Shown here piece after piece: positions 9,901-33,496 of a stretch of 43,351 bases of DNA. The stretch's first letter is position 1, and each line of letters begins with the position of its first letter. The stretch covers positions 55,340 through 98,690 of the forward strand of contig PANZ01000012.1 of assembly GCA_002707835.1 (NCBI GenBank), read 5' to 3'. Under the pieces are notes generated by a model. It was not told the origin of the DNA. It worked only from the letters and a program-made list of their open reading frames with translations, and did no database searches. This DNA comes from Chloroflexota bacterium. Its GTDB lineage: Bacteria; Chloroflexota; Dehalococcoidia; UBA2979. Made by a program: the position numbers and the translations under genes.

Positions 9901-10992
9901 TTAATTACCTAATCGAGATAAAACTTCATCGGCAATTTCAATAGTATTCAATGCATTACTTTCAGAAGTCAAATCAGCAGTTCTCAGTCCATCTTCGATT
10001 ACTTGACTAACCGCCTCTTCAATAGCTACTGCCTCTTCTTCAAGTCCACACGAGTGACGTAACATCATTGCAGTACATAAAATCATTGCTAGTGGATTGG
10101 CAATATCTTTACCAGCGATATCAGGCGCAGAACCATGTATAGGTTCATACATGCCAAAGGCAGTTCCAACTTCTCCAGGTGTAGATAAAGATGCTGAAGC
10201 GAGCATTCCCATAGATCCAATCAACATGGAAGCTTCATCTGTAATTATGTCACCAAACATATTGCCCGCAATAACCACATCAAAGTCACTAGGCCGCTTA
10301 ATCAAGTGCATAGTCATAGCGTCAACTAACACATCTTCATATTCAACTTCAGGAAATTCTTTTTGTACTTCATGCACAATTTCTCTCCATAGTCGAGATG
10401 ATTCCAATACATTAGCTTTATCAACATTGGTTAATTTATTACGTCTTTGCTGTGCAAGTTTGAATCCGAGTCTTGCAACTCTCTCAACTTCATCTTCACG
10501 GTAATAAATTGTATCAACAGCAGCGCGGAGATTATTTTCATTTCTTCTTTCTTTTGGTTCACCAAAATACGCACCACTAGTTAGCTCTCTTATAACCATA
10601 ATATCGGTACCTTCAAGAATTTCTTGTTTTATAGATGAAGAATCTAACAACGCAGGAATTGCTTTCACTGGACGTAAATTAGCCCACAATTGCAACTCCG
10701 ACCTTAATGCAAGCAAACCTTGTTCAGGACGAACAGGCGCTGTCGGATCATCCCACTTTGGTCCACCTACGGCTCCAAACAAAATTGCATCAAAATCTCG
10801 AGCATCTTGGAGAGTCTGTTCACGTATCGCAACACCAAATTTGTCTATACAGTCTCCGCCGACAGTATCATGTTTAAGGCGGAAGACATGTTCATATTGT
10901 TGTCCGATTAACTCTAAAGTCCTAACACCTTCTTTAGTAACTTCCGGACCTATTCCATCACCAGGTAACACGAGAATATCAAAACTAGCCAT
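9901..10992 (-). CDS. leuB: 3-isopropylmalate dehydrogenase
   Basis: ILVLPGDGIGPEVTKEGVRTL, LRSELQLWANLRPVK, EPIHGSAPDIAGKDIANPLAMI. Start MASFDIL at 10992 has AGGAG SD; the 11034 start is an extension. Confidence 0.96.
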   Translation of the reverse strand: MASFDILVLPGDGIGPEVTKEGVRTLELIGQQYEHVFRLKHDTVGGDCIDKFGVAIREQTLQDARDFDAILFGAVGGPKWDDPTAPVRPEQGLLALRSELQLWANLRPVKAIPALLDSSSIKQEILEGTDIMVIRELTSGAYFGEPKERRNENNLRAAVDTIYYREDEVERVARLGFKLAQQRRNKLTNVDKANVLESSRLWREIVHEVQKEFPEVEYEDVLVDAMTMHLIKRPSDFDVVIAGNMFGDIITDEASMLIGSMGMLASASLSTPGEVGTAFGMYEPIHGSAPDIAGKDIANPLAMILCTAMMLRHSCGLEEEAVAIEEAVSQVIEDGLRTADLTSESNALNTIEIADEVLSRLGN

Positions 10993-11093
10993 GAAATTAA
11001 CTCCTAAAATTTTTAAACTAATGCGCAATATCATATAAATTAAAATTTTGATTTCAGGGCAAAATTTTGTAACAAGTCTATATTTTAAGCAAG

Positions 11094-11363: not shown

Positions 11364-11413
11364 GCCTGCACTCCTATCTAGTGCTCCGGTAAATTACCGA
11401 ATTGGCCTGAAAA

Positions 11414-11545
11414 TTGCTTACGAGGTTAGCTGACGGGTTCGGGTTGTCAGGACACCCGCTCTTCGCGAAGAGTTCACCCCAATTAATGGTTCCCCCGATC
11501 TCAATTATGAAATTCATAATTAAAGATTCAGCAGCTATACAACCT
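11414..11545 (-). ncRNA. c-di-AMP riboswitch (ydaO-yuaA type)
   Basis: Minus strand reads GCUGAAUCU...GAGAUCGGGGGAACCAUUAAUUGGGGUGAACUCUUCGCGAAGAGCGGGUGUCCUGACAACCCGAACCCGUCAGCUAACCUCGUAAGC. This carries the conserved ydaO blocks GGGGGAACCA, GGGGUGAA and CCGAACCCGUCAGCUAACCUCGUAAGC in the right order. Confidence 0.92.
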
Positions 11546-30700: not shown

Positions 30701-30777
30701 TGGGGTGGATGATGGGATTTGAACCCACGGTCTCCTGGGCCACAACCAGGCGCTTTAACCACTAAGCTACACCCACC
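30701..30777 (-). tRNA. tRNA-His (anticodon GUG)
   Basis: GGTGGGTGTAGCTTAGTGGTTAAAGCGCCTGGTTGTGGCCCAGGAGACCGTGGGTTCAAATCCCATCATCCACCCCA: cloverleaf, anticodon loop TTGTGGC, extra G-1 opposite C73, encoded CCA. Confidence 0.96.
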
Positions 30778-30862: not shown

Positions 30863-31366
30863 CTATTCAGCTTCCTTCGCAAGTTTTCGATATCGACCTT
30901 TGAAAAATAAAAGCGGATCAACAGATGAGTCATTTGAGGAAAAATCGACAACCTCACCCACAACTATAGTATGATCTCCACCAGGAAATTGATCACGCAC
31001 CTTACATTCAGCAAATGCTACGCAATCATCTAAAATAGGAGTCCCTAAAATACCCGCATGATAAGGAGTTCCGCCAAGAGGCTCTTCCATTCGTCCATGT
31101 TTGGCAAATAGAGTAGAAATGCCTTCTTGATTTTCACCCAGTATGTTAACTGCAAATGAACTCGTCTCCGATAGTGCTTCATGCATTGAAGCAGTTTTGG
31201 CAACACAAATTAATAGCAATGGTGGATCTAAGGATAATGAAGAAAATGCATTGGCAGTCATTCCATATAGCTCTTTAGATTCTAGAGTAACAACAGTCAC
31301 TCCTGTAGCAAAAATTCCCATCGTGTCTCGAAATGATCTGGAATCTCCTGATTTTTCTTCACTCAT
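30863..31366 (-). CDS. flavin reductase domain protein (FMN-binding split barrel)
   Basis: FRDTMGIFATGVTVVTLESKELYGMTANAFSSLSLDPPLLLICVAKTASMHEAL. Confidence 0.93.
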   Translation of the reverse strand: MSEEKSGDSRSFRDTMGIFATGVTVVTLESKELYGMTANAFSSLSLDPPLLLICVAKTASMHEALSETSSFAVNILGENQEGISTLFAKHGRMEEPLGGTPYHAGILGTPILDDCVAFAECKVRDQFPGGDHTIVVGEVVDFSSNDSSVDPLLFFKGRYRKLAKEAE

Positions 31367-31397: not shown

Positions 31398-31494
31398 TGG
31401 CGGGAGTGCGTGGGAGTCGAACCCACCCAGGACTACGACGTAGCCCCGCAACGGTTTTGAAGACCGCGAACACCACCAGGCACTATCCACTCCC
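31398..31494 (-). tRNA. selC: tRNA-Sec (anticodon UCA)
   Basis: GGGAGTGGATAGTGCCTGGTGGTGTTCGCGGTCTTCAAAACCGTTGCGGGGCTACGTCGTAGTCCTGGGTGGGTTCGACTCCCACGCACTCCCGCCA: 97 nt, anticodon loop CTTCAAA (UCA), long variable-arm hairpin, T arm GTGGG-TTCGACT-CCCAC, G73-CCA. Position 8 of the 8/5 acceptor is a G/G mismatch. Confidence 0.92.
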
Positions 31495-31585
31495 ACACAC
31501 ATCATACTTATAGATTAGGAATTGGAGTATCACTAATCATGTATTATTATGCATAAAGATAATTATATAAGAGCAGGTAAAAAAA

Positions 31586-32089
31586 TTGACAATCGAACAA
31601 CCTTCAGAAGACGATCTTTCGCAAGCTTCACCAGACAATATCAATAAGATGCGCAAGTTTGTTAATAATTTTGCAGAAAAAAGTGGTAGCTTTTTACACC
31701 CACAATCTGAGATTACAGAATTTCTAGTAATCGGTTTAGCAAAAAATATTGATGAGGTAGGACGACCTCTTTGCCCATGTATGTTTTTTGAAGACAAGGA
31801 AGAAGAGATCGAAAAGAAATTTTGGATTTGCCCTTGTGAAGAAATGCAGAGATGGAAATATTGCCACTGACTACTCTTTTGCGACGAGGAAGGTCTTCCC
31901 GTCACAGAACATTTACCAGAAGATCATGAAGGCCGAGAAGCTTATGGTCATCGCAAAGACCCAGACCCTAGTAAAGGTAGGGCTTTAGGAAAGCTTGAAG
32001 AAAAACAAGGTAGGTCACTTAAAAAAGGACAGCGAGCCAGTGAAGACTCCGATCAAACTGAAAATCAAAATCCGAAAAATGTTATTTAG
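31586..32089 (+). CDS. selenoprotein: ferredoxin:thioredoxin reductase catalytic (beta) subunit-like, Sec at TGA 31868-31870
   Basis: TTG start; ...[38 protein letters not shown][U][39 protein letters not shown]... to TAG 32087-32089. CPC-X16-CPC-X8-CHU matches the FTR signature CPC-X16-CPC-X8-CHC. SECIS-like hairpin follows; selC is adjacent. Confidence 0.9.
31871..31905 (+). promoter_or_regulatory. bacterial SECIS element
   Basis: Downstream of TGA: GACG-(A)-GGAA-[GGUC]-UUCC-CGUC (31883-31903), 8 bp with one bulged A and apical GGUC; the loop GG lies 21 nt after the TGA. The AGGUCU apex matches that of E. coli fdhF. Confidence 0.85.
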
Positions 32090-32409
32090 AGTACCGCATC
32101 TATATGCTTGGCAAGTTCACTTTTTGGACGAAATCCTATAACTTGACCAACATTTTCACCACCTTTGAAAAGTAATAATGTTGGGATAGAACGAATTCCA
32201 TACTTACCTGATACTTGAGGATTCTCATCAGTATTTAGCTTCACAAATTTAACTTGTCCATCGTAGTCATCAGATAATTCTTCTACAACTGGAGCCACCA
32301 TCCTGCAAGGTCCACACCAGGGAGCCCAAAAATCTACCAAAACAGGTAGTTCAGAATTTAAAACATCAACTTCAAATGTTGAATCTGTAGTATCCGTAGG
32401 ATGTGCCAT
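32086..32409 (-). CDS. trxA: thioredoxin
   Basis: [42 protein letters not shown]. Confidence 0.97.
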
Positions 32410-32497: not shown

Positions 32498-33496
32498 TTA
32501 AGTATATCGCGAAGAAATTATTGATTGAACTTGCTGGTGTATACCTAATTGATCTGTTTGGGCGGCATTTATTATCGCATTACTGACTGCGATAGCATCA
32601 CCACGACCATGGCCAATGAAAACTGCTCCCTCCACACCTAATAAAGGTGCAGCACCATATCTACGATAATCCAAATTAGATCGTACTTCACGAAGAGCTG
32701 GTAAAAGTAAAGCTCCTCCTAGACGAGAACGAAAAGATTTACGAGCTGTTGACCTCATGACATCAAACATCATAGAAACTGTCCCTTCCATAATTTTTAG
32801 GGCATTATTCCCAGTAAAACCATCTGTGACAATTACTTGGCAAGATCCCGTTACTATGTCACGTCCTTCGATGTTACCCACAAAATTTATAAATGAATCA
32901 TTTTCTAACTTTGCATAAGCTTCCTGAATGAGAGTTGAACCTTTTGAGGCTTCCTCACCAATAGACAAAAGACCAACTTTAGGTGAATCAAATCCATGAA
33001 TCATTTTCATATATACTGTACCCATATCAGCAAATTGAACTAAATGTGATGCTCGCGATTCAGCATTAGCACCTCCATCAATCAATAAAGATGGCCCACC
33101 TGGCGTAGGCAAAACTATTGCAAGTCCAGGACGTTCTACTCCTGGAAGTCTTCCTAGGTGAAGAAGAGCTGCAGCCAACATTGCACCTGTATTACCCATC
33201 GAAACAAATGCATCAGCTTTTTTACTTTTTACCAAGTCCATTCCAGTCCATATTGAAGATTCTGTACGATTACGTATCTGCATGCCCACATGTTCTTCCA
33301 TAGTAATTACATCAGAAGCATGTACTATCTCTAATGAGCTAGGAAAATCTCCCAACTTATTTATTTCTTGTTCCAATATGCGTTGATTGCCAATCAATAT
33401 AATCTGAACACCTTCATTAGCAGCTAATAAAGCACCTGCAACAGCAGATTCAGGTGCAGCATCACCTCCCATCCCATCAACAGCAATAACACTCAA
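32498..33496 (-). CDS. plsX: phosphate acyltransferase PlsX
   Basis: IAVDGMGGDAAPESAVAGAL, SMGNTGAMLAAALLHLGRLPGVERPGLA, VTDGFTGNNALKIMEG. Confidence 0.96.
   Translation of the reverse strand: MSVIAVDGMGGDAAPESAVAGALLAANEGVQIILIGNQRILEQEINKLGDFPSSLEIVHASDVITMEEHVGMQIRNRTESSIWTGMDLVKSKKADAFVSMGNTGAMLAAALLHLGRLPGVERPGLAIVLPTPGGPSLLIDGGANAESRASHLVQFADMGTVYMKMIHGFDSPKVGLLSIGEEASKGSTLIQEAYAKLENDSFINFVGNIEGRDIVTGSCQVIVTDGFTGNNALKIMEGTVSMMFDVMRSTARKSFRSRLGGALLLPALREVRSNLDYRRYGAAPLLGVEGAVFIGHGRGDAIAVSNAIINAAQTDQLGIHQQVQSIISSRYT

Follow-up and report, generated by a model that had tools for sequence, protein, structure and literature searches.

The window, by which we mean the whole stretch of 43,351 nucleotides that was analysed, derives from a MAG of 1.64 Mb that is 94% complete (G000 below). 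It carries a tRNA gene divergent from a gene for ferredoxin-thioredoxin reductase (FTR), and the features of this region are as follows.

30701 to 30776, minus strand: tRNA-His (GTG), 3' of the flavin reductase gene (ARAGORN; Rfam)
30863 to 31366, minus strand, as selC: flavin reductase-like gene directly 3' of selC (Pfam PF01613, E=2.2e-42)
31398 to 31494, minus strand: selC, tRNA-Sec (UCA) with encoded G73 and CCA (ARAGORN; RF01852, 74 bits; covariation across 31 relatives)
31458 to 31460, minus strand: UCA anticodon of selC (ARAGORN, tRNA position 35)
31487, minus strand: 5' G of the 8th acceptor pair, opposite G at 31409 (direct reading; G.G in every selC of the family examined)
31495 to 31585, no strand: gap of 91 nt between the divergent selC and FTR genes
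31586 to 32089, plus strand: Sec-containing FTR catalytic subunit, 167 aa, U95 in a CHU motif (Pfam PF02943, E=1.7e-23; translation with TGA=U)
31868 to 31870, plus strand: in-frame TGA of FTR, predicted Sec
31877 to 31909, plus strand: predicted bacterial SECIS hairpin, apical loop GGUC, core GGAAGGUCUUCC (fold -13.5 kcal/mol, z=-2.59)
32086 to 32409, minus strand, as selC: trxA, thioredoxin (WCGPC; Pfam PF00085, E=9.9e-34)
32498 to 33496, minus strand: plsX, a member of the conserved neighbourhood (Pfam PF02504, E=9.4e-98; synteny)

The FTR gene begins with a TTG codon at 31586, a longer frame being excluded by an in-frame TAA at 31568, and its stop codon is overlapped by the 3' end of trxA. 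The initial annotation had placed the tRNA about 90 nt from the FTR start on the opposite strand, which agrees with the measured gap of 91 nt. A scan for consensus promoters returned nothing above chance and none in this gap, where no shared promoter motif was found either; the sequence between selC and FTR differs freely between genera. The flavin reductase-like gene is equally placed beside selC in the sister genome G002. Elsewhere in the window, a c-di-AMP (ydaO/yuaA) riboswitch was matched on the minus strand at 11400-11543 (Rfam, 83.6 bits), approximately 370 nt upstream of an unexpected neighbour, an isocitrate/isopropylmalate dehydrogenase gene (9901-11034, minus strand, PF00180).

The minus strand from 31398 to 31494 was called tRNA-SeC (tca) by ARAGORN. 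Against Rfam RF01852 this gene scored 74.0 bits (E=1.8e-13; gathering score 47), the highest of all tRNAs in the genome; the runner-up was a tRNA-Ser at 49.4 bits, and the remaining matches that were checked proved to be ordinary Ser, Leu, Tyr, Trp and Arg tRNAs. The covariance model gave a tRNA-Sec call above the cut-off rather than a Ser or suppressor call. With the genomically encoded GCCA included the tRNA is 97 nt long, and it has a D stem of 6 bp with a 4-nt loop and a long variable arm with a stem of 8 bp. Read on the minus strand, its 5' part is GGGAGUGG AU AGUGCC UGGU GGUGUU ... CUUCAAA and its 3' part is GUGGG UUCGACU CCCAC GCACUCCC G CCA. The acceptor strands (5' GGGAGUGG, 3' GCACUCCC) give 7 canonical pairs and a G.G at the eighth layer, and the T stem adds 5 canonical pairs, making 12 canonical pairs over 8+5 nt on both strands. 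Direct reading therefore confirmed the pair count and the G/G of the earlier description, while its 97-nt UCA tRNA-Sec with long variable arm and 6-bp D arm was borne out by ARAGORN, RF01852 and covariation. The folding energy by itself was unremarkable (z=-1.9). In an alignment of 31 related genes, 96.3% of cells were paired versus 86.3% in shuffles, and 22 of 32 pairs had changed on both sides versus 8.8 in shuffles, with none of 500 shuffles as good; the D stem was paired in 99.5% and the variable arm in 98.8% of cells. This pattern of sequence change indicates that the cloverleaf is under strong selection.

The eighth acceptor layer was examined across the lineage. In the 31-sequence alignment the eighth pair was non-canonical in 29 sequences, while the seven outer acceptor pairs were unbroken and the T stem was 100% paired. 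All selC genes of the family that were examined have G.G at layer 8, followed in almost every case by G-C at layer 9 and U-A at layer 10, and G.G also occurs in several other Chloroflexota families. Among wider Chloroflexota selC genes the layer is G-C, C-G, U-A, G.G, G.A, A.A or U.C, a variety that marks it as a tolerant position. Infernal chose an alternative register, a possible reading, in which G8 pairs with C65 and G66 is bulged. Decay to a pseudogene was considered as the origin of the G.G and rejected, as it is common to all family members examined and to several other Chloroflexota families. The mismatch had been put forward as an imperfection of the usual 8/5 geometry; the G/G is real but, being conserved and typical of the lineage, does not appear to be a warning sign; tRNASec variants with a 12-bp acceptor/T helix are documented (PMC5330540). 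Those variants include Dehalogenimonas, of the same class, and resemble the window tRNA in having 12 canonical pairs and looking functional; they differ in that the published forms have a 7-bp acceptor (7/5) and are mostly bulged, whereas the window tRNA has 8-nt strands with a mismatch. In its UCA, G73, encoded CCA, 6-bp D stem with 4-nt loop, long variable arm and 8-nt plus 5-nt strands it is like the bacterial tRNASec of RF01852, but its eighth layer is G.G and its ninth and tenth are G-C and U-A, versus G.U and C-G in E. coli. In E. coli tRNASec the pairs C7-G66, G49.U65 and C50-G64 act as determinants for SelB and as antideterminants against EF-Tu (review PMC9976931). All three counterparts are changed in the window selC (G.G, G-C, U-A), and we hypothesize that the G.G may stand in for these SelB-determinant and EF-Tu-antideterminant pairs.

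The same genome contains selA (E=2.0e-152), selB (E=1.0e-93) and selD (E=8.2e-108, with one TGA inside); the initial annotation had named a lack of selenium machinery as counting against its reading, and selA, selB and TGA-selD are all present. The TGA of the FTR gene lies at a conserved Cys position and gives CHU at residues 93-95. Of 53 distinct Sec-FTR genes, 46 share the 12-nt core of the SECIS hairpin without a change and 52 have the GGUC loop, while the hairpin is not kept in 28 Cys homologues. Mean entropy at third codon positions within the hairpin was 0.37 bits in the 53 Sec genes versus 1.56 in the 28 Cys genes; outside the hairpin it was 0.99 (Sec) versus 1.09 (Cys). Compensating changes (15-31 C-G or T-A) hold the helix pairs in Sec, not Cys, FTR genes. 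Together with selC, selA, selB and TGA-selD this hairpin strongly supports reading of the UGA in the FTR of this lineage as Sec, as had been proposed for the TGA-interrupted gene. By record titles, the closest FTR relatives belong to MAGs of Dehalococcoidia or Chloroflexi. Sec-FTR as such has already been published, in the GOS survey (PMC2398784) and, for the CxU motif, in a 2026 review (PMC13188914). Two FTR genes of the class (G039:C130:3368-3643 and G059:C120:23056-23322) have two in-frame TGA codons and recall the double-Sec FTR from GOS. One UGA-type FTR with apical loop GGUU (L137) came from a record titled Proteobacteria bacterium, through transfer or misbinning.

To relate Sec-FTR to selC, 44 genomes of the family were searched, 37 of which have FTR. 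Sec-FTR was found in 33 of the 44, and selC was detected in 29 of these 33; four genomes have Cys-FTR alone, at other loci, and selC was detected in none of them. This co-loss gave a Fisher p=0.001 with kin genomes counted as independent. The genomes compared are MAGs in which contig breaks are frequent near the tRNA, and of the four Sec-FTR genomes in which selC was not detected, three (G021, G025, G064) have a contig end no more than about 250 nt from FTR on the selC side. Cys-type FTR genes L172, L173 and L174 lie at unrelated loci, two with a tRNA gene (Val, Ala) within approximately 1.2 kb; they occur in G061 and G062, where no selC was detected, and in G003 alongside Sec-FTR.

The window tRNA might instead be an opal suppressor, a Ser-tRNA variant, a selC-like tRNA-Cys or a pseudogene. 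The acceptor-T helix with only 12 canonical pairs would fit such an identity, and selC-like tRNAs of other identities exist (review PMC7609411), but G73, the 6-bp D stem and UCA are present, covariation is strong, the genome has the full Sec machinery, and selC is lost together with Sec-FTR; we regard this alternative as extremely improbable. That the window tRNA is a genuine bacterial tRNA-Sec, and that it serves Sec decoding, is well supported by these comparisons. It is very probably a functional selC whose targets would include the neighbouring FTR and SelD, located in an inherited thioredoxin neighbourhood that is old in Dehalococcoidia. Under this explanation tRNASec would be serylated by SerRS, SelA would convert the serylated tRNA to Sec-tRNASec, and SelB would deliver it to UGA codons bearing a SECIS hairpin. 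Sec would take the place of the second Cys of the CHC motif in FTR, with SelD as a further target, and FTR would presumably act on TrxA.

Linkage was then compared among genomes in which the genes share a contig. FTR and selC are on one contig in 20 family genomes, and in 19 of these FTR is divergent from selC and lies at most 5 kb away on its 5' side; 12 of these pairs are direct neighbours and 7 are spaced 1.4-4.2 kb apart, with trxB (NADPH-thioredoxin reductase) separating FTR and selC in several of the latter. For trxA, a position at most 5 kb away on the 5' side of selC, in the same orientation, was seen in 16 of the 18 family genomes that have the two genes on one contig and in 8 of 10 such genomes from other families. 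Where genomes of other families have no FTR at the locus, selC still follows closely on the 3' side of trxA or trxB, in the same orientation; the distance to trxA ranges from 17 nt to 1.3 kb (17 and 83 nt in two further families). trxB was found between selC and FTR or trxA in ten genomes (G006, G008, G011, G014, G016, G030, G040, G049, G056, G058). The trxA-trxB pair is retained in G004, G012, G027 and G034, where no selC was detected. The synteny is not universal: selC is located elsewhere in roughly half of the further families that were looked at, and outside the class only a single sampled Chloroflexota selC (L254) had a full trxA match in its flanks. On contig G053:C68 (L209), which also carries selA, selD and selB, there are two selC genes approximately 4.5 kb apart.

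Because it is kept in these proportions inside and outside the family, and is met with in many families of the class, some of which lack FTR, the same-strand association of selC with trxA (often with trxB and plsX) looks like the older, class-wide one, and the adjacency of FTR looks derived, at the level of the family. The inherited neighbourhood consists of plsX, trxA, often trxB, and selC on one strand and is probably of long standing in Dehalococcoidia; in the family of the window, Sec-FTR has its place on the opposite strand between the thioredoxin gene and selC, so that where trxB is missing from this spot selC and FTR are direct neighbours. The direct adjacency in the window would then be the result of trxB leaving. 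The initial annotation had taken the tRNA beside FTR as independent support for Sec decoding and had asked whether the linkage is conserved. Linkage is conserved in the family and Sec decoding is well supported; the adjacency, laid over an older class-wide selC-trxA(-trxB) synteny, is not specific evidence about FTR.

Two accounts of this synteny were weighed. The first is inherited gene order without function, Sec-FTR lying by selC since FTR lies by trxA. selC is found beside trxA even where no FTR was detected (G036, G040, G052, G056), the Sec-FTRs of other clades (L100-L117, L130-L149) have no selC nearby, and the intergenic sequences are free to differ between genera; what may speak against it is that order and strand have survived much rearrangement, in 16 of the 18 family genomes and 8 of the 10 others noted above. 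We consider this account somewhat the more probable one. It concerns what the linkage means and is compatible with a functional selC. The second account, in which selC, FTR and trxA form a functional selenium-thioredoxin module, is possible but doubtful, and was ranked lower. Here Sec-FTR or TrxB would reduce TrxA, TrxA would reduce selenite towards selenide for SelD, and the locus would balance tRNASec supply with selenoprotein demand. Retention over many genera and several other families fits such a module, as does the presence of another thioredoxin reductase, trxB, between selC and trxA in G006 and G011, where FTR was not detected; published work has TrxA both reducing selenite and being of importance to bacterial selenoprotein synthesis (PMC8538045). 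The absence of a shared promoter motif from the 91-nt gap speaks against it, neutral retention of the ancestral order accounts for the same facts, and a further TrxB-like protein is encoded elsewhere in the genome. This protein (G000:C3:72000-72887, L198) has a CATC motif, falls under the curated TrxB cut-off and may be a divergent thioredoxin reductase or one of the ferredoxin/flavin type; the idea that FTR is the only thioredoxin reductase of the genome is unsupported for this reason.

With respect to known systems, the FTR of the window is like the reported Sec-FTR in being an FTR catalytic subunit with Sec in a CxU motif and a SECIS hairpin, but those reports (PMC2398784, PMC13188914), in the parts consulted, describe the protein family and mention no selC or trx linkage. 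Operons of selA-selB-selC with neighbouring fdhA (PMC1794560) likewise place a selenoprotein gene next to selC; in G000, however, selA, selB, selD and selC each sit on a separate contig and the neighbours of selC are FTR and trxA. The arrangement in G000 looks vertically inherited, unlike a transferred operon. A search of the open literature on selC-trx linkage or SAR202 selenoproteins found nothing relevant, and the class-wide selC-thioredoxin synteny seems unreported so far.

These data offer, within one family, a natural comparison between Sec-FTR with selC and Cys-FTR without it, and the conserved G.G lends itself to a clear-cut test, in a system other than E. coli, of the acceptor pairs that SelB and EF-Tu recognize. 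More speculatively, and in our view improbably, Dehalococcoidia may keep tRNASec in the thioredoxin locus because selenite assimilation runs via TrxA; the TrxA reductase of the family would itself be a selenoprotein (Sec-FTR), so that a single locus would encode a selenium circuit that reinforces itself, with G.G replacing the E. coli SelB/EF-Tu pairs. The position of selC beside thioredoxin genes, one of which, in the window, needs Sec, suggests that the use of selenium and the reduction of thioredoxin may be connected, and the class-wide selC-trxA synteny is a testable genomic hint that thioredoxin may be the route of selenium into selenoproteins.
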